DNA from: Prochlorococcus sp. AG-409-J16
GTDB lineage: Bacteria > Cyanobacteriota > Cyanobacteriia > PCC-6307 > Cyanobiaceae
Assembly: GCA_003215655.1 (NCBI GenBank)
Contig: QCKB01000010.1
Coordinates: forward strand, 1-53,903
DNA: 53,903 nucleotides
Reading direction: 5' to 3'
Of this stretch, positions 6,905 through 46,460 are shown piece by piece. The position numbers were made by a program, and so were the translations under genes. Numbering within the stretch: position 1 is the first letter of the stretch; each line of letters begins with the position of its first letter. The notes beneath the pieces were generated by a model. The model worked only from the letters and a program-made list of their open reading frames with translations. It was not told the origin of the DNA and ran no database searches.

Positions 6905-7450
6905 ATGGCAGTGAAAGTGAAACAACGACTCATTCAATACCTGCTTTCAAGGAAAGAAGAGGAAGGATTCACGTTGGTGGAATTAATAGTTGTGGTGATG
7001 ATTATTGGAATTCTGTCTTCTATCGCAATCCCAAGTTTTATGAGTGCAGGAGATAAAGCCAAACAAAAAGAGGCTTCAGTCGCTTTGTCTGCTTATGTCA
7101 GAGCTGCTCAGGCTTATTACACAGAGAACAGTCAAAATGCTGTTCATGCAGGTCATTTGGCTAATTACGTTAGTGTTATCGCCTGTGCAAATGCATCCAA
7201 TCCAAGTGGATGCAAAGATTCACCACCTGTCAACCTAGAAAATACGCAAGCAACTAGTTGGAATACACCTAGTGGTCTTTATGCGATAGGCATAATTAGT
7301 TCAAATTCTCAGGTGCAATTCACGGCCAACCCATCAGAAGGGTTTAATGGTTATGGAGTATCGGCATGTTTTAGCAGTCAAACTGGTTCCACTAAGGTTG
7401 TTGAGTCAAGCACTAAAGAGCGCTTGGTTACACCACCAAATTGCACTTAA
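6905..7450 (+). CDS. Type IV major pilin-like protein
   Basis: 181 residues: basic leader ending EEEG, FTLVELIVVVMIIGILSSIA with Glu5, then AKQKEASVALSAYVRAAQAYYTEN and a variable domain with cysteines, 'WNTPSGLYAI' and the end TPPNCT. Its 3' end is duplicated as a fragment at 4247. It is the last pilin before the convergent rpsD, separated by a spacer that carries the hairpin at 7522. Start ATG 6905; GTG 6878 is in frame upstream. Confidence 0.9.
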   Translation: MAVKVKQRLIQYLLSRKEEEGFTLVELIVVVMIIGILSSIAIPSFMSAGDKAKQKEASVALSAYVRAAQAYYTENSQNAVHAGHLANYVSVIACANASNPSGCKDSPPVNLENTQATSWNTPSGLYAIGIISSNSQVQFTANPSEGFNGYGVSACFSSQTGSTKVVESSTKERLVTPPNCT

Positions 7451-31510: not shown

Positions 31511-31825
31511 ACCTTAGTTCCCTCTTTCATTTCTCAAAAGATTTCCTAATAATGAACAATAACAATCTTTGACGCAATAAGAAATTTCTCTTATATCGCT
31601 TTTAGCGTTATAGGTATTGCGTACTCATCTCGAAGATTTATAAGTACGACTTTCTCTTTTCTCAAATCGATTGTGATGCAAGGGTTTTATGCTTCTGTAA
31701 CTCTTGTGCCTGGAGTTAATAAGACTTGTTTTCTGTATCTGTCCGTCACAATTTTCTAGCATTTACTCATGAACCAATTGGATATCATTTCAATTACTTC
31801 CAAAAGTACCTATTTAGGAGTAGAA

Positions 31826-31894
31826 CAGGACTACGACACTCCTCACACAAGTTTGTCGTTATGGGTGCTACTCGATGAGGGCACCTTTTTTTTT
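31826..31894 (+). ncRNA. Yfr1-motif small RNA with terminator (copy 1)
   Basis: Contains the exact 11-mer ACTCCTCACAC (31838-31848), which is the ultraconserved unpaired motif of the cyanobacterial RNA Yfr1. It could sit in a loop closed by CGACA (31834-31838) and TGTCG (31854-31858). A terminator follows: GGTGC-tactcgatgagg-... GCACC (31864-31885) and nine T. Length near 65 bases fits Yfr1 size. Unlike known Yfr1 it recurs in this window (39452). Transcription is inferred; a short frame across it on the plus strand is not a gene. 31511-31825 shows nothing else. Confidence 0.6.
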
Positions 31895-32029
31895 AACTTG
31901 CGAATAGCAGCTCTGCGTATAAATACCCATGACCGCGGCCTTAGGCTCTCTCGGATTTGGAAACTAGTAAACACTCGCTCTAAATTTTTAAGAGAACCTG
32001 CGGTTTAGAATATTTTATTAGCCTTAAAG

Positions 32030-32255: not shown

Positions 32256-32435
32256 TTAAACTCTTTTTGACAACAGTTTGAAAGCCCAGTACCCCAATAA
32301 GGCAATTATTACCCAATGGATAACTGTTCTAATCACCCAAAGAGAAAGCATAAGTACAAGAGCAGAAAGGACAACTCGTTTAGTGAGTGCCTTGGCTTCA
32401 TTAGTCATGAGTTCCCAGCGAGGGAGTAAAGACAT
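32256..32435 (-). CDS. Small membrane protein of a repeated island family (copy 1)
   Basis: 59 residues, MSLLPRWELMTNEAKALTKR then VVLSALVLMLSLWVIRTVIH and a second helix ending FKLLSKRV. Close homologues occur at 37777 and (shortened) 44957, on the opposite strand, which confirms coding and fixes the start at ATG 32435 rather than 32447. Two-helix membrane hairpin; function unknown. Confidence 0.75.
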   Translation of the reverse strand: MSLLPRWELMTNEAKALTKRVVLSALVLMLSLWVIRTVIHWVIIALLGYWAFKLLSKRV

Positions 32436-34113: not shown

Positions 34114-36144
34114 ATGAAAGGAGACAATACTGCTAGGGATCTCTTTGCTTTAGCGATAGAAAAGTATCAGAAAGGGAAGTTTCCAGAAGCAATCGAAGCA
34201 TTCAATCAATCACTTGTACTAAAAGAAGATTGGGAGACCTACCAAGGACTTGGATTAGCGCTGTATCTCACATGGCAATACCAGCATGCAGTCGATGCAT
34301 TCGACAAATCACTTGTACTAAAAGAAGATTGGCACACCTACCAAGCACTTGGATGGGCGCTATATCACACAAAGCAATATCCAAGAGCAATAGACGCATT
34401 CGATAAATCACTAGTACTAAAAAAAGATTGGCAGACCTACCAAGGACTTGGATTAGCGCTGCATCTCACAGAGCAATACCAGCATGCCGTCGATGCATTG
34501 AATCAATCACTTGCTCTAAAAGAAGACGGGCAGTCCTACCAAGGCCTTGGATGGGCGCTGTTCAAAATGCAGCAATACCCATCAGCTATAGAAGCATTCA
34601 ATCAATCACTTGAAATGAAAGAACATTGGCAGTCCTACCAGGGACTTGGATTGGCGCTGTTTAACAGGAAGCAATATGAACCAGCAATTGATGCAATATT
34701 AAATTGGTGGAGGTCATCAGGCAGAATTGAAGAACAAGAACTTCTAGCGAAATGCCTTAGGAATGCATTTCATAATAAATATGGTGAACTAAGTAATTTC
34801 CTGTGTGCTTCTATCGCTGTTAATTCAGAAGATTTGAATAAATTGCTTGTAGCAAAAGAAGACAAGATGATTAATGAACTACACAAAAGTATAAAACAAA
34901 ATAAATTACCAAACCAAATCCTTAGAGTTTTTTCATTTGTGCTACAACAACAAGCAACAAGTAATACAACGATATCCAAAAATCACGAAAAAATACTTTC
35001 TAATTTTCGAACAGATAATGCTAATTTGATTCCTAGATTCGAAAAAAAACGAAAAGAAATTCTTGTTTTAGGAGTGAGTCATTCTATGCTTTTTGATGGA
35101 ATACCAGGAGTAAATGTTTTTACTTTAGGTGCAGGAACGATGTACAGCATCGGCAATCCAAACTCAAGAACAGGTCACTATAGAAGGATTAAATCAATAT
35201 TGATAGATCGAGACCCATCAGAAACAATCTTGGTCTTTAATTTTGGGGAGGTAGATCTTCGAATGCATATCAATAGAATAATCAAAAAAGAGAATAAATC
35301 TCTGCAAGCAATATGTGACGACGTTCTGAAAAGGTATCTTGAGTTTATTGATCAAATCAAGGAAAGAGGTTTCGATGTAATCATAAGCGGACCACACTGT
35401 GGAGGGGGTGATGCATTTACAGCATTCTCAATAACAGCGAGCATTACAGAAAGGAATAATGCATGCGCTTACATGAACGACAAACTTGCATCAGAGTGCA
35501 TGATTAGATCTATACCATTTATAACACTATTTGATCTTGCAGTTGATCAAACTACTTTAATAGAGAATACTTCCCTTTTTGAGGACTACTCTCATTTACT
35601 TAGACCGCCAAATATTATAGGAAAATCTATTCAATCCTTGCTTAAGGAAAGACTAGAACGAGCAATAGTGGAATTGGAATGTAAATCTTGTAAATCTATT
35701 AGATCAAATTACTACGGAAGTGAGATTAAAACTTTTTGTAGAATTCTTATTAGCAACATCCCAGGTTGGAAATCTGGTGCGAAATTTATGCCAAGAAAAG
35801 TGTACCAAAAACCTTCTGAGATTCAAGATCAGCGAATTTATCGAGCGATAATTGAATTACCTTTCCCAGTGCACCCCAAAGAGGTCGCGCTCTCGTTTAA
35901 TAAAAATCGTTTACATGTAAGAACGCATGTCCAGGCAATATTTGAAAATTACAACCCTGCAATTCAACTAAATGACAATGTTATATCTGCATTTAGGCAA
36001 AAAATACGCTGCACTAAAGATCAAAATTGCCATTATTTTCTTGAAAAAGATTCAACAAATAGACAATCACGTTTTTTTGCTATATCAATTTCACAGGCAC
36101 AATTTATTAAACTTAAGTCAATTTCAATAAGCAGATACATTTAA
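34114..36144 (+). CDS. 33-residue TPR array fused to an SGNH-hydrolase-like domain
   Basis: 676 residues. Residues 1-200 hold about six TPR-like units of 33 residues (e.g. AIEAFNQSLVLKEDW...GLGLALY), one residue shorter than normal TPR. After a linker, residues about 315-520 look SGNH/GDSL-like: LGVSHSMLFDGI (nucleophile Ser), LVFNFGEVDLRMHI (GE.D.R block) and DYSHLLRPP (His near the end). A C-terminal part of about 120 residues is unknown. Role inferred: esterase/acyltransferase on a surface polymer with the TPR for docking. The start region aligns with the TPR genes at 39622 and 41353. Confidence 0.7.
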   Translation: MKGDNTARDLFALAIEKYQKGKFPEAIEAFNQSLVLKEDWETYQGLGLALYLTWQYQHAVDAFDKSLVLKEDWHTYQALGWALYHTKQYPRAIDAFDKSLVLKKDWQTYQGLGLALHLTEQYQHAVDALNQSLALKEDGQSYQGLGWALFKMQQYPSAIEAFNQSLEMKEHWQSYQGLGLALFNRKQYEPAIDAILNWWRSSGRIEEQELLAKCLRNAFHNKYGELSNFLCASIAVNSEDLNKLLVAKEDKMINELHKSIKQNKLPNQILRVFSFVLQQQATSNTTISKNHEKILSNFRTDNANLIPRFEKKRKEILVLGVSHSMLFDGIPGVNVFTLGAGTMYSIGNPNSRTGHYRRIKSILIDRDPSETILVFNFGEVDLRMHINRIIKKENKSLQAICDDVLKRYLEFIDQIKERGFDVIISGPHCGGGDAFTAFSITASITERNNACAYMNDKLASECMIRSIPFITLFDLAVDQTTLIENTSLFEDYSHLLRPPNIIGKSIQSLLKERLERAIVELECKSCKSIRSNYYGSEIKTFCRILISNIPGWKSGAKFMPRKVYQKPSEIQDQRIYRAIIELPFPVHPKEVALSFNKNRLHVRTHVQAIFENYNPAIQLNDNVISAFRQKIRCTKDQNCHYFLEKDSTNRQSRFFAISISQAQFIKLKSISISRYI

Positions 36145-36217: not shown

Positions 36218-36365
36218 TTGTCTAAAGACAGCTATATATCCATTGAATATTGATCCCAGCGATCTAGAAGTGAATGAAGAGTCAGAGCAGGAATGGTTGA
36301 AAAAATAAGTGCTTGACTCAAATGGCGTGATCGAGATACCCCGACCTTCTGAGAATTAATTTCAG
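36218..36365 (+). repeat. Island spacer module with peptide remnant (copy 1, decayed)
   Basis: Encodes PLNIDPSDLEVNEESEQEWLKK followed by stop, then a decayed version of the GC hairpin. Copies at 37608 and 44788 keep the same frame and stop (PLN.DPSDLELNQESE...KK). It looks like the 3' end of a former gene carried along as spacer. Confidence 0.6.
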
Positions 36366-37566: not shown

Positions 37567-37601
37567 GTTCGGTCCCTTTCTTAGTTTTTTGAAAAAAGGT
37601 T

Positions 37602-37740
37602 TTTTCACCATTGAATCTTGACCCCAGCGATCTAGAACTGAATCAGGAGTCAGAGCACGAACGGTCTAAAAAATAAGTGATTGTCTGAAAGGGCGGGATC
37701 GAAATACCCCGCCCTTCTTAATGGCTTACTGAAAGCAAAG
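37602..37740 (+). repeat. Island spacer module with peptide remnant and GC hairpin (copy 2)
   Basis: 37608-37676 encodes PLNLDPSDLELNQESEHE plus RSKK and stop. Then a 9-base-pair stem AAGGGCGGG-atcgaaata-CCCGCCCTT (37689-37716) followed by CTTAA. Over 120 bases nearly identical to 44782-44905. Both are followed by a copy of the small membrane-protein gene. The hairpin resembles a terminator without a full U-run. Confidence 0.75.
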
Positions 37741-37776
37741 AAATCCACTAAAAGAAAGGGCAATGAACGCGAATCC

Positions 37777-38076
37777 ATGCTTCTAAACCCTCGATGGGAA
37801 TACATGACTGATGTCGCGAAGGCAATGACCAAGCGGGTTGTACTTTCTGCCTTTGTTCTCCTCCTTTTCCTTTGGGGAATCAGAGCACTAATCCCTTGGG
37901 TAATAGTTACTTTGTTGGGTTGCTGGGTATTCAAGTGGTTATCGAAAAGTAATTTAGTTAGCTGCCTCAATCCAACGCAACTTGACACCGAACAACCAAG
38001 CAAGTACATTTGTTCTATAGGACATTTCTCACGCACAATCCGTCCTAATCAAATGGGCACCTGCATTTACCAGTGA
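37777..38076 (+). CDS. Small membrane protein of a repeated island family (copy 2)
   Basis: The conserved part is MLLNPRWEYMTDVAKAMTKR...FKWLSKS (58 residues, two helices), as in 32256 and 44957. Here the frame reads on for about 41 residues (NLVSCLNPTQLDTEQPSKYI...) into sequence that at 41150 is non-coding spacer, so the tail is probably a fusion caused by loss of the native stop. Start ATG 37777 by homology. Confidence 0.7.
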   Translation: MLLNPRWEYMTDVAKAMTKRVVLSAFVLLLFLWGIRALIPWVIVTLLGCWVFKWLSKSNLVSCLNPTQLDTEQPSKYICSIGHFSRTIRPNQMGTCIYQ

Positions 38077-38091
38077 GCGAGGTGCCTTTTT
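38056..38091 (+). terminator. Rho-independent terminator (spacer type 2)
   Basis: GGCACCT-gcatttaccagtgagcg-AGGTGCC followed by five T: a perfect 7-base-pair stem. It closes a 130-base spacer (from about 37960) that recurs at 41150-41288 with 'cctcaatcca' and 'tttgttctatagg' in common; this may be a second small RNA family. Confidence 0.85.
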
Positions 38092-38818: not shown

Positions 38819-38880
38819 TATATTGCTTTAATAATTAAGGATGTCTTTCTATTATCTTTTGAACTTTTCTCTAGCCCTAA

Positions 38881-39078
38881 AAAAGGACCTGCTGATCCTT
38901 TTTGGAACTAACTAAGAGTAAAAATCTCGCAAATTCACCAAATTGCTCTAATACTGAGGCGTTCTGGAACTTCTTGGAACGTCATGGTACATACAAAAAA
39001 CGGAGACGGTGTCCGTTAAGTAAGGACTAGATGCTCTTTCCTGGAAGCAACTTCGGGTTGTTTTGTGTTCTATTTTCT
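38881..39078 (+). repeat. att-like repeat, order A-core-B (left copy)
   Basis: Segment A (38881-39000, 'ggacctgctgatcctttttggaac' to 'acgtcatggtac') is about 80% like 46087-46208, which directly follows the tRNA-Ser 3' end. The core ACAAAAAACGGAGAcGGTG (38993-39011) matches 46201-46219, including the last tRNA bases, with one mismatch. Segment B (39011-39078, 'gtccgttaagtaaggactag', 'cttcgggtt') matches 46001-46070. The order is A-core-B here, but B-A-core at the tRNA: a hallmark of tandem integration remnants. Confidence 0.7.
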
Positions 39079-39156
39079 AGAATCCTTATTTTCCCAAGCA
39101 CCATATTTGCATGCAATCGATTGCACCGGGTACCCAATATAGGATCTCTAAAATAT

Positions 39157-39179
39157 AAAAAATAGGGGTGTTAACCCCT
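39157..39179 (-). terminator. Terminator of the AlpA-like pseudogene
   Basis: Read on the minus strand: AGGGGT-taac-ACCCCT then a TATTTTTT run. The stem has six pairs. It lies about 16 bases after the original stop of the AlpA-like gene. Confidence 0.7.
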
Positions 39180-39194
39180 TCCTTTCTCTACTCG

Positions 39195-39371
39195 TTATTG
39201 CATCCATTCTTGGATGTCTGATTCCAACCAGATAACAAGATTAGATCCTAATGGAATTTATTCAGGGAATTTACCTTCATTAATTCTGTCGTAGATAGTT
39301 GTTCTACTCATTCCTGTTCTATCAACTATTTCTGGAATGCGCAGAAAGCGTTCTCTGATGTCGATTTTCAT
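39195..39371 (-). pseudogene. AlpA-like HTH regulator with in-frame stop
   Basis: Reads MKIDIRERFLRIPEIVDRTG then MSRTTIYDRINEGKFPE, TAA (39258-39260), IPLGSNLVIWLESDIQEWMQ, stop. Both halves lie in one frame and together give a complete AlpA/excisionase-type winged HTH (consensus: LR..EV...TG.SR.TIY..I..G.FP...LG...V.W...EI..W). The nonsense codon cuts it after the DNA-recognition part. Such genes accompany prophages and integrative elements and control integrase genes. Supports a decayed mobile element here. Confidence 0.75.
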
Positions 39372-39449
39372 GGCTTCTAAAAAAGTAAAAGAAACTCCCA
39401 TCGCATCGTGCTTTTCCAGTTCACCAAAAGGTCTCATGAAGGATTGGAA

Positions 39450-39515
39450 CAGAACTACGACACTCCTCACACAAGTTTGTCGATATGGGTGCTACTCGAT
39501 GAGGGCACCTTTTTA
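39450..39515 (+). ncRNA. Yfr1-motif small RNA with terminator (copy 2)
   Basis: Nearly the same 65 bases as at 31826: AACTACG, ACTCCTCACAC (39462-39472), closing TGTCG, then GGTGC-tactcgatgagg-GCACC and TTTTT. It ends 107 bases before the TPR-methyltransferase gene at 39622. The identity in motif, stem and terminator while flanks differ suggests selection or recent copying. It runs antisense to the 5' flank of the AlpA-like pseudogene. Transcription inferred. Confidence 0.6.
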
Positions 39516-39621
39516 TGTGCTTCGTATCAACCTATTTTGACTAGGTTGACTATTTTGAATAGATAGATTATGAGTTCTTTTCATCATTCTCTAGTGACTT
39601 TCCGGGTTGGTAGTAATTTTT

Positions 39622-41109
39622 ATGAAACAACTCAATACTTCTAGAGATTTTTTTGGTTTAGCGATAGAAAAGTTACAGAGCAAAAAGTTTCAATCAGCAA
39701 TAGAAGCATTCAATAAATCCCTTGCTCTTCATGAGGATTGGGAGTCTTACAAAGGACTAGGATCGGCACTGTTCAATACACAGCAATACCAATCAGCAAT
39801 AGAAGCATTCAATAAATCTCTTGCACTAAAAGAAGACTGGCATTCTTACCAAAGACTTGGATCGTCGCTGTTCAATACACAGCAATACCAATCAGCAATA
39901 GAAGCATTCAATAAATCTCTTGCACTAAAAGAAGACTGGCATTCTTACCAAAGACTTGGATCGGCGCTGTTCAATACACAGCAATACCAATCAGCAATAG
40001 AAGCATTCAATAAATCTCTTGCACTAAAAGAAGACTGGCATTCTTACCAAAGACTTGGATCGTCGCTGTTCAATACACAGCAATACCAATCAGCAATAGA
40101 AGCATTCAATAAATCTCTTGCACTAAAAGAAGACTGGCATTCTTACCTAGGCCTTGGTTGGTCGCTGATAAAAACACAGCAACACAAGGAAGGACTAGAA
40201 CAATTTTATAGATCGTATGAATGTGAAGGTGACATAAATTGGAGTGTTTTACATGATCTTGGGAGTCAACTAATTAAGCAAAATCATCCTGACTTAGCAA
40301 TCGATTTCTTTCAAGGACTAATGAAAAAATACCCAGATGAACTTCTTACTGTTTGTAGTTTTGTCAGTATGGTCAAGAAGTTAAATCTGGTCTCAGAATA
40401 CCAGGATCTTTTTACCCAGTTAGAAATTAACCGATCCTGGGATTTAGTCGAGTTTTATGAAAAAAATATTAAAAACAAATTATTTTACTTTAAAGATGCA
40501 AATAGTATGCGATTTGCCAAAGACAGATTAGTTAATGCTAAATATGTAAATAATCGCAAGGAATTATGGTATGAAGCAATAAGAAATATGGAGGTAAATG
40601 ATGGATTAATTATGGAGTTTGGTGTTCGGAATGGCTATTCGATATCTTTTATTGCCAACATCCTTTCTCATGAAGAAGTGCATGGTTTTGATTCTTTCGA
40701 AGGACTTCCTGAAGAGTGGAGTTCAAAAACTGCCAAACCTAATGAACCGAGGGGGGGGTTGTCACGTGGAGGACATCTGCCTGCTGTACCAAAGAATGTT
40801 CGTTTACATAAAGGTTGGTTTGAAAATACGCTTCCATTATTTCTTCGATCGTACCCTGACAAGAATTCAAGTCTAATTCATATAGATTCTGATATCTATT
40901 CTTCTGCTAAGACTGTTCTATTCTTACTTGCAAAGACCATTATTCCTGGAACAATAATTATCTTTGATGAATATTATAACTATTCAGGATGGGAAGATCA
41001 TGAATTCAAGGCGTTTCAAGAATTTGTAAAAGAATACGCTTTAACTTATGAATACATTTCATATACACATGAACAAGTATCCATTCGTATCCTAAGTAAA
41101 AATAAATAG
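39622..41109 (+). CDS. 33-residue TPR array fused to a TylF-like methyltransferase
   Basis: 495 residues from ATG 39622 (MKQLNTSRDFFGLAIEKLQ). Residues about 20-190 are 33-residue TPR units, four of them almost identical (AIEAFNKSLALKEDWHSYQR). After a helical linker, the catalytic domain from about 320: LIMEFGVRNGYSISFIANIL (SAM loop), VHGFDSFEGLPEEW, SLIHIDSDIYSSAKTVL and IIIFDEYYNYSGWEDHE, as in TylF/macrocin O-methyltransferase-type enzymes acting on sugars. Same adaptor as 34114 and 41353 with another enzyme attached. Confidence 0.75.
   Translation: MKQLNTSRDFFGLAIEKLQSKKFQSAIEAFNKSLALHEDWESYKGLGSALFNTQQYQSAIEAFNKSLALKEDWHSYQRLGSSLFNTQQYQSAIEAFNKSLALKEDWHSYQRLGSALFNTQQYQSAIEAFNKSLALKEDWHSYQRLGSSLFNTQQYQSAIEAFNKSLALKEDWHSYLGLGWSLIKTQQHKEGLEQFYRSYECEGDINWSVLHDLGSQLIKQNHPDLAIDFFQGLMKKYPDELLTVCSFVSMVKKLNLVSEYQDLFTQLEINRSWDLVEFYEKNIKNKLFYFKDANSMRFAKDRLVNAKYVNNRKELWYEAIRNMEVNDGLIMEFGVRNGYSISFIANILSHEEVHGFDSFEGLPEEWSSKTAKPNEPRGGLSRGGHLPAVPKNVRLHKGWFENTLPLFLRSYPDKNSSLIHIDSDIYSSAKTVLFLLAKTIIPGTIIIFDEYYNYSGWEDHEFKAFQEFVKEYALTYEYISYTHEQVSIRILSKNK
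39691..40185 (+). repeat. Five 99-base tandem repeats (TPR units)
   Basis: Units start at 39691, 39790, 39889, 39988 and 40087, each 99 bases = 33 codons. Units 2-5 differ by only a few bases (e.g. tcgtcg versus tcggcg), so the array expanded recently and unit number should vary between strains. Confidence 0.95.
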
Positions 41110-41252
41110 AAAGATTATTATGGAGAAATATCTGCTTATAACAAAGCAATTGAGTTGATTGCCTCAATCCAGCGCGACTTGACGCCGAATAAGTCTATGA
41201 GTGCATTTGTTCTATAGGGCAAGTTCTTCGCGCAATCCGCCCTAACCAAATG

Positions 41253-41288
41253 GGCACCTGCATTTACCAGTGAGCAAGGTGCCTTTTT
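41253..41288 (+). terminator. Rho-independent terminator (spacer type 2)
   Basis: GGCACCT-gcatttaccagtgagca-AGGTGCC and five T, the same element as at 38056 with its whole 130-base leader (41155-41252). The sequence after it, 'atgtgcttgcctatcaac', matches that after the RNA module at 39450 ('atgtgcttcgtatcaacc'). Confidence 0.85.
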
Positions 41289-41352
41289 ATGTGCTTGCCT
41301 ATCAACAAAACAGATAAAGTAGACTGTCTAGTCTTATCGCCAGTAATTCTTG

Positions 41353-42951
41353 GTGAATGAATCAAATGCTGATAAGGATTTTTTTGCTCTAGGGACAGCA
41401 AAGTATAAAAGTGGAGATTATGAGGGGGCAATAAATTTTTATAGGAAATCAATCGCAACTAAGGAAGATTGGTATTCATACCACTGCCTAGCATGGGCAT
41501 TGTTTAGGCAAAATAACATGAAAGAATCGAGAATCATATTCGAAAAATCAATTTCTCTAAATGAATACTGGAATTCATATAATGGTCTTGGATGGGCGCT
41601 ATTTAATAGCACTCTTTTCTCAAAAGCAATAGATGCTTTTCGCAAATCTCTCAAACTTAAGGAAAACATCAATGCATTTCGAGGTCTTGGATGGTCGTTA
41701 TTTAGAACAAAGCAGTATTCTGAAGCAATAGTTGCCTTTAGAAAGACACTTCGATATGAAGGTAGTGATGAGAATGAAATACTTTCTATTTATAGGCAAC
41801 TTGCAGACTCATATGATTTAATTAACAAGAAAAGTAGTTCACTACGCACTTGGAACATATACTTTTCATATTCTGGACTTATAAATAAAATCGATCCTTT
41901 TATAGGATTGGAAAGAACTTACGAGCAGATTGAAAGTAATAAGTTAGAGCAAATAACATATAATTTTCTTGATAATGGATTTGAATTCTCTCCATCCTAT
42001 CAAATAGCAGATGATTCTTCTCTTAAAGAATGGAGACATATTTTATATTTACACATACCAAAATGTGCAGGAACTTCATTTGAGCAACCTTTGCGAATAC
42101 TTAGTAAATTATTATATAAATTGCAACCTAAAGGATTTACAAACGATTTAATTGACAATTATATTGTGCCAGAACCTATAAGATCTAAATATGAGGTTCA
42201 AGTATTACGAAAAAAGATAGAATTTTCCACTCCGAACAAAATTAAAAGCACCTTCATTAGTTGCCATGGCGTATCTTGGAACCCGTTAAGCTCCTCAATA
42301 AGTAAAGCAATAGAAAATGCTCCTAAAGTTCTTGTACTTTCTCGTAATCCAAAACAGAGGTTGTTATCTCAGGTAAGACATGAAGCATTTAACTATGAGT
42401 CAATTGATAAACTTATTGATTACATAGAAGAGAATACTTCAAAAAAGAATTCAGAGTTAAATAATATTATGTACAAGTACATATTTGACGTAGGTCTTAA
42501 TGCAATTGAATCAAAGACTGAACTGGAAAAGAGGCAAATTTTACCTAATGATTTAGACGATATGGCCTTTGTTGACATTTCAGATGTTTCAAGCAAAATG
42601 AAAATAAGGTCTGCTTACTTAAGCGCATCGCGATTGCCGAATGTTTTTCAATATTCTAAACTAAATGATTCATTGTCAAGAGGAAAAAAATTAGTTAAAC
42701 AGTTGAATGAAGACGAAATTAAATATGCATTCAACCGATGTATTGAATTAGGTTTTGTTGAAAAGGACGAAGCAATTGATTTTGATTGTCTTCATAAACG
42801 AACTCTTAGTAAAATAAATAACTTCTCTTTTGATAATGAACATATTTCTAATATCCACCCCCTCACATTTATCCTTTCTAAGGAATCAATAGGTTCTATA
42901 GTTCCAACTAAAATGTTCCTGGAAAATCCATCTATGTTTTATGAGAACTAA
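41353..42951 (+). CDS. 33-residue TPR array fused to a sulfotransferase-like domain
   Basis: 532 residues. GTG 41353 is chosen because the DNA around it ('gccagtaattcttg') aligns with that before ATG 34114. Residues about 10-135 are TPR units of 33 residues. Then ILYLHIPKCAGTSFEQP (near 231-247, P-loop-like) and VLVLSRNPKQRLLSQ (near 327-341, 3'-phosphate motif), as in sulfotransferases. The C-terminal 'NIHPLTFILSKESI' pattern is shared with the gene at 2593, so the two are distant paralogs with different TPR types. Substrate unknown. Confidence 0.72.
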   Translation: MNESNADKDFFALGTAKYKSGDYEGAINFYRKSIATKEDWYSYHCLAWALFRQNNMKESRIIFEKSISLNEYWNSYNGLGWALFNSTLFSKAIDAFRKSLKLKENINAFRGLGWSLFRTKQYSEAIVAFRKTLRYEGSDENEILSIYRQLADSYDLINKKSSSLRTWNIYFSYSGLINKIDPFIGLERTYEQIESNKLEQITYNFLDNGFEFSPSYQIADDSSLKEWRHILYLHIPKCAGTSFEQPLRILSKLLYKLQPKGFTNDLIDNYIVPEPIRSKYEVQVLRKKIEFSTPNKIKSTFISCHGVSWNPLSSSISKAIENAPKVLVLSRNPKQRLLSQVRHEAFNYESIDKLIDYIEENTSKKNSELNNIMYKYIFDVGLNAIESKTELEKRQILPNDLDDMAFVDISDVSSKMKIRSAYLSASRLPNVFQYSKLNDSLSRGKKLVKQLNEDEIKYAFNRCIELGFVEKDEAIDFDCLHKRTLSKINNFSFDNEHISNIHPLTFILSKESIGSIVPTKMFLENPSMFYEN

Positions 42952-42969
42952 CAACGTTAAAAAAGAAAG

Positions 42970-43285
42970 ACAAAAGCAAATCAAAAACCAGATCAATTCC
43001 GCAATCAGGTCCCCATTCAGAGCGTTGTGGATGTTCGTCCCATTACCACACTTCTTTAACCTGAGAATTCCAGAAAGGATCAGTCTTCAAAAATCACTTA
43101 ACAAACTTCTCAAACTGCTTTCCTCTGACTCCCGTATCAGGATCTAATGCTTCATAGAACTGATCTAAGGTGGCTAATTTTCCCTTTAGACGCAGATCAG
43201 TGTTCTTATTTTGACGCTTTCTCTTGAATTGTGTACTTGAGATTGAAGAAGCAATAGAGTTATTTTTTATGTACCCGGAAAGAGT
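42970..43285 (-). pseudogene. Fragment of a restriction/DEAD-box helicase gene
   Basis: The minus-strand frame reads LDQFYEALDPDTGVRGKQFE, KFVK, TGA, FLKTDPFWNSQVKEVW, TAA, WDEHPQRSEWGPDCGIDLVF, then breaks off next to the end of the sulfotransferase-like gene. This is the characteristic N-terminus (Mrr-like nuclease part, with G.D.GIDL) of large helicase/restriction proteins. Two in-frame stops and loss of nearly all the rest show a dead remnant. The plus-strand frame at 42941-43147 is its shadow. Confidence 0.75.
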
Positions 43286-43558
43286 CTAATCAATTATTAT
43301 TTCTTGATTTAATTTCTGCTGATTTAAAAAAGTTTAAAAATTGTCTATAGCTGATTTCACAAAATTACATCTCTAATAATGATTATTAAGCAATTTTCTC
43401 AGTAAGCTATATGCGCATTAACTGTACAAAGCTAGTACAGGGATATATCTTCCTTCAAATCACTTCCTAGACAATAGATCTCAGGATAATCACAAAAGTG
43501 ATGTTGCTCGTGATGAGTGAATACTCTTCTTACTCAAGCCGGTTTTGATGCATGAGAT

Positions 43559-43744
43559 TTGCAGATTGCACTTCAAGCAATCGGAGATGCAAAGCAACGA
43601 AGAAAAGATTCTGAAGAAGGTGAATACAAATTCTTTCTTGATAGAACATTAGTCTACGATGACAGAGATGCATTCATCTACAAACGAGCACCCAGCAAAT
43701 CAGGAATCTGGTATTTCCGTATATACGATCCCAAGAAAAAATAA
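43559..43744 (+). pseudogene. Possible integrase N-terminal remnant
   Basis: No good start (a TGA lies just upstream, only TTG 43559). Reads AIGDAKQRRKDSEEGEYKFF, then DRTLVYDDRDAFIYKRAPSK, SGIWYFRIYDPKKK, stop. The last part resembles the arm-binding start of tyrosine recombinases (…IYKR…SGIWYFRI…). No catalytic domain follows. Identification is tentative but fits the decayed integrative element. 43286-43558 shows nothing further. Confidence 0.35.
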
Positions 43745-43785
43745 CCTATCATTAATGTTCTATAATAAAGAAAAATTCAGGTTGT

Positions 43786-44706
43786 ATGAGAGTATTTCAT
43801 CATCATTTAGCTAAGACTGGTGGATCGACCATCAAAAAAATAGCTAAAGACCAATATCGAGAAAACTTTCATTATTTAACTCCATCCACTTCAACTGAAG
43901 AATTGAAAACATGGCTTAGCAAAAAGGATTTTTTTATTAGCTCATATACACTAAGTTTGGGTTATGAAAAAATCCAACTTCTTTTACTTGATAAAACAAT
44001 TAAAAGAATTATTGTTTCAAGAGACCCTATAGAAAGATTCAAAAGTTTTTGCGCAGCTGGTTATAGTAATATTCCCAAAGAAGATTTTACTAAAGGTCTT
44101 CCTTATTGGGGAAATGAAGCTGTTGTAACAGAACCTCTGAATGCAAGTTTATGGCTAAAATCCTCACTAAAATATATGGAACTGTTATTATTATATGGCA
44201 AAGAACGGGTGGCTCTAGGACAGTGGAATTTCAGTCTTTCATATCCAGTCTATTCTCAATGGTGGCTAGCTTCTTGTTCCTTAGCATATAATGCTGAAAA
44301 CAAACAATTTGAATATTGTGGAACAAACATTTATAACCATATATTGAAAACTAGAGAAGAGCTTCGTAGGCCTAATTCAAATAAGAGCTTGGAAGATTAT
44401 ATAGGATCATATCTACTAGATTTCTATTCTGCTTTTGGAACGACAGATAATATTATAGAGTTCGTAGAGTTACTAATTGCAATGGGTATTTTTGAAGATA
44501 ATATTGATGAAATACCTAGGGAACATAGAAGTACAGATGTGCAAAAAGATATGCCTGAACTATTTGAGATAGATGATTCATTAATAGCAGATTATTATTC
44601 TTTAATTCCAGAAGACTTCATGTTTCATTTTGCATGTAGAGAACTTGCAAAAGAACAGATGAGTTCGGTTGTCATGCCCCTCACAAATAACAAAATAAAT
44701 TCATAA
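43786..44706 (+). CDS. Sulfotransferase-like protein without TPR
   Basis: 306 residues. FHHHLAKTGGSTIKKIAK at the very start is P-loop-like (KTGGS), and RIIVSRDPIERFKSF near residue 80 matches the 3'-phosphate motif RDPxxRxxS. This fits sulfotransferase-family proteins acting on carbohydrates. The rest ('SLWLKSSLKYMELLLLYG', 'FVELLIAMGIF') is helical and specific. It stands alone in the island with its own upstream region. PAPS as donor is inferred from motifs only. Confidence 0.7.
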   Translation: MRVFHHHLAKTGGSTIKKIAKDQYRENFHYLTPSTSTEELKTWLSKKDFFISSYTLSLGYEKIQLLLLDKTIKRIIVSRDPIERFKSFCAAGYSNIPKEDFTKGLPYWGNEAVVTEPLNASLWLKSSLKYMELLLLYGKERVALGQWNFSLSYPVYSQWWLASCSLAYNAENKQFEYCGTNIYNHILKTREELRRPNSNKSLEDYIGSYLLDFYSAFGTTDNIIEFVELLIAMGIFEDNIDEIPREHRSTDVQKDMPELFEIDDSLIADYYSLIPEDFMFHFACRELAKEQMSSVVMPLTNNKINS

Positions 44707-44781
44707 AAGTTAAAAGGTTTTCTATTCAAAATTAATTAATTAATTATGCCAAAAAATCAGGTCATCTAAAAACAGGTGTTT

Positions 44782-44925
44782 ATCACCATTGAATCTTGCT
44801 CCCAGCGATCTAGAACTAAATCAGGAGTCAGAGCACGAACGGTCTAAAAAATAAGTGCTTGACTCAAAGGGCGGGATCGAAATACCCCGCCCTTCTTAAT
44901 GCCTTACTGAAATCCCTTAAATCCA
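44782..44925 (+). repeat. Island spacer module with peptide remnant and GC hairpin (copy 3)
   Basis: PLNLAPSDLELNQESEHE plus RSKK and stop, then the AAGGGCGGG / CCCGCCCTT hairpin (44867-44894), nearly identical to 37602-37740. Again followed directly by a copy of the small membrane protein gene. Confidence 0.75.
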
Positions 44926-44956
44926 ATAAAACGGAAGAGAAACAAACTCTGAATCC

Positions 44957-45097
44957 ATGTCTCTAATCCCTCGATGGGAATACATGACTGAAGACGCGAA
45001 GGCAATGACCAAGAGGGTTGTTCTTTCTGCGTTAGTTCTTCTGCTTTCCCTGTGGGTCATCAGAGCACTCATCCCTTGGGTAATCGGTAATCGCTAA
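44957..45097 (+). CDS. Small membrane protein of a repeated island family (copy 3, shortened)
   Basis: 46 residues, MSLIPRWEYMTEDAKAMTKR then VVLSALVLLLSLWVIRALIP, WVIGNR and stop. Compared with 37777 the second helix and FKWLSK end are cut by a small rearrangement (cggtaatcgctaa); the lost end is still recognisable as 'gaattcaagtggttatcg' out of frame at 45121. Could still make a one-helix peptide or be a pseudogene. Confidence 0.6.
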   Translation: MSLIPRWEYMTEDAKAMTKRVVLSALVLLLSLWVIRALIPWVIGNR

Positions 45098-45164
45098 TCG
45101 TTGCTTCGTTGAGTTGTTGGGAATTCAAGTGGTTATCGAAGTGCAGTTGAAATAATTAGACCGA

Positions 45165-45272
45165 CTAGGTCGTATGGAAATTGAAGAAAATTAATTCCAC
45201 GATTGTTTTACCTACAAATAGAACAAATAAACCTTCTGTAAAAAGTATCCATCCAATCGTAGAATTATTCAT
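45165..45272 (-). CDS. 35-residue membrane peptide
   Basis: MNNSTIGWILFTEGLFVLFV then GKTIVELIFFNFHTT: one hydrophobic helix. It is the last of four consecutive tiny minus-strand genes (45749 to 45165), 59 bases after the 30-residue gene. Composition is protein-like; no homologue in the window. Confidence 0.5.
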   Translation of the reverse strand: MNNSTIGWILFTEGLFVLFVGKTIVELIFFNFHTT

Positions 45273-45331
45273 CCCCAAGTTTCTATATCTACTAATCGTG
45301 TTGTCGTGTACCCGTCGGATGATGGCAAGCA

Positions 45332-45424
45332 TTATTTCTTACTTCTGTTCTTATAAACAATCCAACTCACAATCCCAGTAACTAATACTGCATCTACTAC
45401 GAGGTGCCAAGCAAAGAAATCCAT
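45332..45424 (-). CDS. 30-residue single-helix membrane peptide
   Basis: MDFFAWHLVVDAVLVTGIVS then WIVYKNRSKK: one helix and a basic end. A homologue with the same first 14-residue pattern lies at 4106-4204, which supports real coding. Third gene of the tiny-gene operon, 23 bases after the 39-residue gene. Confidence 0.65.
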   Translation of the reverse strand: MDFFAWHLVVDAVLVTGIVSWIVYKNRSKK

Positions 45425-45447
45425 AGTTAAAGCACCGTATTCATGGA

Positions 45448-45567
45448 TTACCAATCTGGATAGGCGAAATCATCTCCAACAGGTTCCTCATAAAAATCAC
45501 CTACCTTGATTCCCTTTTGGTAAGACGAAAGGAATGAAAGGAAGTGGCGAATCATTTCTTTGCTCAT
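45448..45567 (-). CDS. 39-residue soluble peptide
   Basis: MSKEMIRHFLSFLSSYQKGI then KVGDFYEEPVGDDFAYPDW. Soluble and acidic at the end. Its ATG overlaps the stop of the preceding gene by four bases (ATGA), a typical coupled start. Function unknown. Confidence 0.55.
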   Translation of the reverse strand: MSKEMIRHFLSFLSSYQKGIKVGDFYEEPVGDDFAYPDW

Positions 45568-45749
45568 CCTCCTGCTCCCTCTCTTAAACGATAGAAAGTT
45601 TCCTCGCACCTCACAACGACACCTTTGTATTCAGGTGGAAACGCTTTCATCCAAGTGGGGATTCCCATAGTCACGGGGAATCCTCCCTTGATATGAAAGA
45701 CAACCTCTTTCTTCTTTTCATCCAAGAAGTGTGGGGGAAGGTTCACCAT
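45564..45749 (-). CDS. Small hypothetical protein
   Basis: 61 residues, MVNLPPHFLDEKKKEVVFHI, KGGFPVTMGIPTWMKAFPPE, then VVVRCEETFYRLREGAGG. Soluble, beta-rich appearance. First gene of the four-gene run of tiny genes. Not recognised. Confidence 0.55.
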   Translation of the reverse strand: MVNLPPHFLDEKKKEVVFHIKGGFPVTMGIPTWMKAFPPEYKGVVVRCEETFYRLREGAGG

Positions 45750-45789
45750 GCCAACACTTTCTTATTAAGTATATTTTTTCATTTCACCA

Positions 45790-46000
45790 AAAATATACTT
45801 GTATAAACAACATTAAATGAAAGAATTAAATGCTTCTAAAAATACCCTACCACTCAAGTCAAAATACCCTACAATTTACCCTACCGTTTAAATTGCATTG
45901 CGTTGCCTTTGTGTGAATGTGTCTGAAAGGTTAAACCGCTAACATCCACTACAGAACAACCAATTTGAGATCGTGTGGTCCCGTGTGAATGAGTTTGAAC
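45790..46000 (+). other. Gene-free stretch with ACCCTAC repeats
   Basis: Between the tiny-gene operon and the tRNA flank. ATACCCTACC, ATACCCTACA and TTACCCTACC occur within about 45 bases (45841-45890), and TTTTCCCTAAC twice near 46060-46082. Spaced direct repeats next to an attachment region could be recombinase or excisionase binding sites; no gene is supported. Confidence 0.4.
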
Positions 46001-46208
46001 GTCCGTTAGGTAGGGACTACATGGTCCTTCCTGGAACCAACTTCGGGTTATTTTTTGGTCTTTTCCCTAACATTTTCCCTAACACCAAAATGGGACCTAC
46101 TGATCCTTTCTGGAACAAACTAATAGTAATAATCTCCTGAATTCGCCAAATTGCAGCAATAGTGGGACGTTCTGGTACTTCCTGGAACGTCATGGTACTC
46201 ACAAAAAA
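46001..46208 (+). repeat. att-like repeat, order B-A (right copy, at tRNA-Ser)
   Basis: B (46001-46070) and A (46087-46208) match the left copy at 38881-39078 in the opposite order, and A runs directly into the tRNA 3' end. The open frame on the minus strand through the tRNA is a shadow of this repeat. Confidence 0.7.
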
Positions 46209-46293
46209 CGGAGAGGGTGGGATTCGAACCCACGGACGGTTTCCCGTCAAACGATTTCGAGTCGTTCGCTTTCGACCACTCAGCCACCTCTCC
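46209..46293 (-). tRNA. tRNA-Ser (anticodon CGA)
   Basis: 85 bases. Acceptor GGAGAGG/CCTCTCC, anticodon arm AACGA-CTCGAAA-TCGTT with anticodon CGA, long variable arm GACGG-GAAA-CCGTC as in class II tRNAs, and T-loop GGTTCGAATCC. CCA is not encoded; TTTTTT follows the discriminator G. Its 3' end is part of the direct-repeat core (46201-46219), so it is the probable integration target of the island. Confidence 0.97.
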
Positions 46294-46460
46294 AGTTATA
46301 AATAGACAAATATAATTTTAACCATGTATTTACAACATTTACAAATTATGGAGTAAAGACTTATATATGTAGTACTTGATAATTTAATAATATATACCTC
46401 TCTTGCATTAGGCGAAATCTAAAGAAAACGAAATTTACTTTTCCTCTGAAAATCTTAATA

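Follow-up and report, generated by a model that had tools for sequence, protein, structure and literature searches.

The window analysed here (53,903 nucleotides, the whole of contig QCKB01000010.1, G000:C10) belongs to the 1.84-Mb, 18-contig genome of Prochlorococcus sp. AG-409-J16 (G000) and contains the tRNA-Ser(CGA) gene, at the 3′ end of which units of DNA without an integrase of their own have probably been stacked one behind another. The end of this single-copy gene, CGGAGAGGGTG, forms an attachment core that is accompanied by two sequences, A and B, and both recur some 7 kb away in a permuted order: A-core at 38865-39011 is 82% identical to 46073-46219 over 147 nt, and B at 39011-39079 is 83% identical to 46001-46069 over 69 nt. 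A search of the whole genome with the 219 bp beside the tRNA gave above-chance matches at these two places only (E 5.7e-37 and 1.1e-13; next best E 0.1), and core-like sites (13-nt version of the core, up to two mismatches) arose by chance at a mean of 0.2 per mono-shuffled window. This confirms what a sequence-only reading of the window had proposed, i.e., B-A-core at the tRNA (46001-46219) and A-core-B about 7 kb away (38865-39079), with the core overlapping the tRNA 3′ end; the genome has no other such repeats. The features concerned are the following:

46208-46294, minus strand: tRNA-Ser(CGA), single-copy in the genome; its 3′ end is the attachment core
46209-46219, plus strand: core CGGAGAGGGTG, intact copy within the tRNA 3′ end
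39001-39011, plus strand: core copy CGGAGACGGTG, one mismatch
38865-38990, plus strand: A (right) arm of the outer unit, from repeat comparison
39011-39079, plus strand: B (left) arm of the middle segment, from repeat comparison
39012-46000, plus strand: middle segment, bounded by arm B on the left and arm C on the right; probably composite
45442-45997, plus strand: block that in the closed relative G057 directly adjoins core and tRNA (90.5% to L049 14589-15148)
45899-45999, plus strand: C arm, right end of the next unit leftward (96% to L040 and 86% to L049 left-of-core arms)
46001-46069, plus strand: B (left) arm of the tRNA-proximal unit
46061-46097, plus strand: repeat R (TTTTCCCTAACATTTTCCCTAACACCAAAATGGGACC), single copy here, at both cargo ends in most relatives' units
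46073-46198, plus strand: A (right) arm of the tRNA-proximal unit; three YTGGNAC heptamers in 10-bp steps at 46172-46198
46001-46219, plus strand: complete cargo-less tRNA-proximal unit (B-R-A-core); contiguous cargo-less counterparts in L044 and L045

An arm search over 400 genomes of the family revealed A/B arms in 20 relatives (the six named ones are all Prochlorococcus records with AG-, single-cell-style, assemblies; relatedness between genomes was judged on one or two genes). All 20 share the plan core-B-R-cargo-R-A-core, in which the core always precedes B and always closes A. The A-core abuts the tRNA in most of them, with other flanks elsewhere; the tRNA and its neighbours are conserved and intact, and the sequence switches abruptly at the core. 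The cargo between B and A measures ~0.7-1.8 kb in units of 0.9-2 kb (cassettes overall are ~0.1-2 kb and usually hold a single gene) and encodes an ion channel, a DUF805 protein, a TPR protein or a membrane protein, or has no long open reading frame (ORF). The repeat R, 23-40 bp long, lies within the arms on both sides of the cargo in ~10 of 11 units, and cargo-less B-A units are present in two relatives (L044, L045). Beside tRNA-Ser(CGA) or on island contigs, successive cores lie 66 bp to 7.4 kb apart, i.e., in tandem at one target gene; the tiny intervals of 83 bp (L050 8392-8485) and 66 bp (L056 695-771) apparently consist of arms only. Judged from this comparison, A and B are the right and left attachment arms of one unit type and, because they are its two ends, A-core-B is the head-to-tail junction of neighbouring units and B-A-core a unit without cargo. 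The C arm resembles core-preceding arms of G012 (96% identity) and G057 (86%), and the core expected after it has 9 nt deleted (AAC/GTCC); this third arm type shows that at least three units are stacked, not two, and the middle segment is probably composite.

Across 22 loci, one and the same core is accompanied by ~42 different arms on its left and 27 on its right. The arms have a 10-bp periodicity (z 7.4 on the left, 15 on the right; in the right arms a 12-bp signal, due to TTTTCCCTARCA repeats, is stronger than the 10-bp one), which would be as expected for integrase arm sites, and within the window YTGGNAC pairs at 10-bp steps are confined to the A and B arms. Of 152 points at which homology between genomes breaks off, 22 coincide with cores, vs a random mean of 2.6 and a maximum of 8 in 500 randomizations. 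In G057, a closed genome in a single contig, only 2 bp separate a block of the 45442-45997 type, with the C arm, from the core and tRNA, and the 219-bp unit is absent, so that this locus is the tRNA site without that unit. An empty site in which A and B flank the tRNA without the core duplication, which the sequence-only reading had named as a refuting result, was not found. Homologous islands with different boundaries, named there as evidence against serial integration, do exist in that unit positions and neighbours vary between genomes, but each such boundary still lies on the same core, which fits accretion.

Units also recur between genomes. A 0.95-kb unit, with no obvious gene besides a small RNA (sRNA), is 95-99% identical in every part between G041 and G021, vs 40-47% for its flanks, which are thus unrelated, and 73% for the SBP gene beside the tRNA; the simplest reading is that the unit would have been transferred whole, from core to core. 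The ion-channel cargo behaves differently. Between G026 and G036 it is 98% identical even at third codon positions (recA 77%) and 99% including the non-coding sequence after the gene, but the A arm is only 79% and the B arm 87% identical. Movement of this unit as a whole was rejected since the arms are far more diverged than the cargo; most simply, homologous recombination close to R or to the sRNA block would have exchanged the cargo between diverged arms. Near-identical cargo in diverged arms indicates that ordinary recombination also swaps cargo. Two processes are at work, whole-unit transfer and cargo recombination, and an integrase is needed for the first only. Related cassettes would in this way bring single genes and regulatory sRNAs from one lineage to another, distant one. 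Many genomes have the same ion-channel gene in places other than A/B units as well.

The explanation we favour, with a probability of roughly 0.8, is that integrative units lacking an integrase, and moved by one supplied in trans, have accreted as an array at the tRNA-Ser(CGA) 3′ end. Each unit would consist of core, left arm B, cargo, right arm A and core; a tyrosine integrase provided in trans would join the unit core to the tRNA core, leaving the tRNA intact and pushing older units outward. Tandem integration would yield A-core-B, the anatomy observed at 38865-39079. The tRNA-proximal 219 bp would represent the same unit type after loss of its cargo by R-by-R recombination, as is suggested by the occurrence of R at both cargo ends in relatives. 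The attachment cores, intact in many relatives, are in the window intact on the tRNA side, mismatched in the outer copy and shortened by 9 nt in the third; since the left cores are damaged in this way and only relics of integrases are left, the array can probably no longer move unless a helper comes in.

The serial integration that had been proposed for this site stands in so far as DNA was built up at the tRNA 3′ end (abrupt change at the core, integrases at the same site), but not as simply two related elements, for A and B are unit ends and a third arm, C, is present. That two full tycheposon-like elements integrated successively and then decayed to permuted att sites would account for the tandem core-bounded structure at the tRNA and for the integrase and AlpA relics between the copies. 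We nevertheless consider it unlikely, because the relatives' A/B units that were read contain no integrase, cargo-less B-A units stand alone elsewhere (L044, L045), there is a third arm type, and the ~525-aa family of the integrase stub was not similar to the tRNA-Ser integrase set in the tests run. If A and B were instead a repeat that homologous recombination had dispersed, with no site-specific integration involved, the exchange of cargo within diverged arms and the mosaic units would be explained, with R and the Yfr10-like block supplying the homology. The unit ends, however, coincide with the tRNA core, which different arm families have in common, one unit moved complete with its two arms although its flanks are unrelated, and the genome under study has the repeats nowhere away from this locus, and we regard this explanation as improbable. 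A plain ~7.2-kb tandem duplication that has since diverged could be read from four repeat pairs (37592/44770, 37771/44951, 37901/45095 and 38865/46073) spaced 7178-7208 nt apart. The 918-bp and 932-bp stretches between these pairs are, however, dissimilar (24-30% identity at equal offset; local score 37, with shuffles reaching up to 44), which refutes duplication for the interior, where no similarity beyond that of shuffles exists; moreover, the B spacing of 6990 falls off the pattern and the 37592-type repeat is a multi-copy island element. This makes a duplication highly improbable.

Several observations weigh against accretion with an integrase acting in trans. The left end of the outer unit was not found, and the arms of the middle segment are mismatched (B vs C). 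Ion-channel units overall combine 99% identity in the cargo with 82-93% in B and often 77-79% in A, so that some of the exchange took place by recombination within the arms and not by movement of whole units. In AG- assemblies chimeric junctions are possible, although the same junction types in independent genomes and in the closed G057 argue against chimeras as a general cause. Finally, a search for an integrase with A/B-type arms found none, integrase loci having other arm sequence, and the enzyme is therefore one that we infer.

The middle segment holds, besides its cargo, the relics of integration genes:

39607-44706, plus strand: cargo, i.e., a TPR-methyltransferase, a TPR-sulfotransferase and a 306-aa protein without Pfam family
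39258-39470, minus strand: AlpA-like gene fragment with an in-frame stop (Pfam AlpA 33.5 bits, cut-off 21; open 105-aa relative in L045)
43559-43741, plus strand: tyrosine recombinase stub, N-terminal part only, ~60 aa

Both relics had been suspected from the sequence. The AlpA-like pseudogene between the repeats is supported by its score above the Pfam cut-off and its in-frame stop vs the open relative, and the stub is real, with 53% and 46% identity to the N-terminal part of ~525-aa tyrosine recombinases and without the catalytic domain. This family forms a different group from the ~430-aa tRNA-Ser integrases (no similarity in the tests run). It also holds that there is no intact integrase: none of the island type occurs in the whole genome, where a profile of the tRNA-Ser integrases found no match, and the single PF00589 protein is the product of a near-universal gene. 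This ~386-aa protein was rejected as the island integrase since copies ~60% identical occur in most genomes searched and it lies among housekeeping neighbours on another contig; its tyrosine-recombinase-like gene is at L001 826-1986 (G000:C1), and the ~60% identity extends across genera. The relatives' A/B units contain no integrase among the ORFs or Pfam-scanned cargo of the units examined; the idea that one might fill their ~1-kb gap between B and A proved wrong, this gap being the cargo. Scans of the window and these units revealed no intact integration gene (in the window only the stub and the AlpA fragment), and transfer genes were searched no further than these scans. An integrase family of P4-like type adjoins tRNA-Ser(CGA) with the same core in many picocyanobacteria (L088-L116; e.g., L090, L098, L103, L107, L113), with differing arms around one core, and an enzyme of suitable specificity therefore exists. 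No integrase with A/B arms was found, and none of this family is present in the genome itself; integrase loci contain no YTGGNAC pairs except in a neighbouring A arm in G015. Among viral contigs, exact core-B and A-arm patterns had no match and the tRNA-Ser integrase profile found one distant relative only; the matches of a phage-database search near the tRNA fell on the tRNA itself.

Prochlorococcus gains and loses genes in islands and has few recognisable mobile elements. The tycheposons, which Hackl et al. are said to have described in Cell in 2023, are reportedly islands of Prochlorococcus built by tRNA-directed tyrosine recombinases and provided with cargo, with seven tRNA genes as integration sites. 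The sequence-only reading had used this term, but it does not suit the locus: neither the window nor the relatives' A/B units hold an intact recombinase, only an N-terminal stub being present here, and the 219-bp unit and the A/B units of 0.9-2 kb fall far below the 4-200 kb quoted in PMC10872708, a range that the 7-kb middle segment would fit. The tycheposon "cryptic elements", a term used in PMC10187409, may include some of these units. There is also a likeness to cis-mobilizable elements (CIMEs), which lack integration genes but keep their att ends and accumulate next to an integrated partner (PMC5704250), and to the tandem islands at ssrA of Dehalococcoides, bounded by 20-bp repeats, 15 of them without integration module (PMC3146451); here too integrase-less units lie in tandem at one target gene. 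Those systems are described as decayed large elements, whereas many units here measure ~0.1-2 kb, have conserved arms and an R on either side of the cargo, and as a rule carry one gene or sRNA. In the additive flexible islands of Actinomarinales and Methylophilaceae, cassettes at tRNA genes leave tRNA-end repeats and, for Actinomarinales, cassette transfer between genera is reported (PMC7771536, PMC10872708). Variable cassettes at a tRNA bounded by tRNA-end repeats are found here as well, but arm structure, arm periodicity, in-arm cargo exchange and sRNA cargo are not described in the passages of these two papers used for the comparison. With integron cassettes and clusters of attC sites lacking integron-integrases (CALINs) the units have in common that they are small, mostly single-gene, arranged in arrays and would be served by a helper recombinase in trans; they differ in that no integron integrase was seen (the only PF00589 protein being the ~386-aa one; attC was not searched for) and that their core, flanked by arms of the integrase type, is the 3′ end of a tRNA. 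Accreted integrase-less elements at tRNA genes are therefore known, but three aspects look new compared with these papers: the small size of the cassettes, arms that stay fixed while the cargo changes, and sRNAs as passengers.

The sRNA in the window is a candidate at 39455-39523, as follows:

39455-39523, plus strand: Yfr10-like sRNA candidate, exact ACTCCTCACAC at 39462 (full-length sub-threshold Rfam match, 21.9 of 43 bits)

In this block after B, the exact ACTCCTCACAC, which we take to be the motif of Yfr1 and Yfr10, stands before a hairpin and T-run in which some of the changes are compensatory. Yfr1 and Yfr10 have a common motif (PMC6778093). As the Rfam match is well below threshold, "Yfr10-like" is a proposal. 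The candidates at 31785-31910 and 39405-39530, both in this island and with a terminator hairpin, are the sole sites in the genome for a wider 17-nt pattern, and similar blocks occur in the islands of many relatives (L039-L054), often within A/B units. In ion-channel units the next RNA after the Yfr10-like one is Cyano-1 (RF01701, above threshold; L047 1380-1446, L048 14930-14996, L050 3224-3290, L042 4531-4597), with GGAAACA repeats that are presumably typical of Yfr2; we propose that the two may form a mobile sRNA pair. The Yfr10 motif is present in 8 of 11 cargo-bearing A/B units, 4 of which additionally have a Yfr2-type motif. A wider suggestion, which we put forward tentatively and at somewhat less than even odds, is that low-light Prochlorococcus-type cells share a pool of ~0.1-2 kb integrase-less "att cassettes" at tRNA-Ser(CGA), i.e., core and two-arm slots moved in trans by passing tRNA-Ser integrases, with cargo exchanged via R and with Yfr10-like and Yfr2-type RNAs as regular passengers. 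If true, a tRNA would here underlie a system of gene exchange resembling that of integrons, and the absence of conserved gene order at Yfr10 would become easier to explain. If the units are mobilised in trans, an 11-bp core and two short arms would suffice to mobilise a gene or a regulatory sRNA, and the helper would not need to live in the same cell; the locus offers concrete junctions, arms and donor-recipient pairs for testing this.

Other repeats occur in the window. A pair at 41133-41288 and 37936-38091 (78-87%, spacing 3197) ends in a terminator-like hairpin. A multi-copy island repeat encoding a small membrane peptide (WEYMT..AMTKRVVLSA) lies at 37592-37946, 44770-45140, 36240-36350 and 32263-32424; two copies are spaced 7178-7194, near the A-repeat spacing of 7208, and the DNA between is unrelated. 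The TPR proteins at 34114-36144 and 39607-41109, fused to other domains, contain near-identical 99-bp repeats (up to 94%), which would be a sign of recent repeat expansion.
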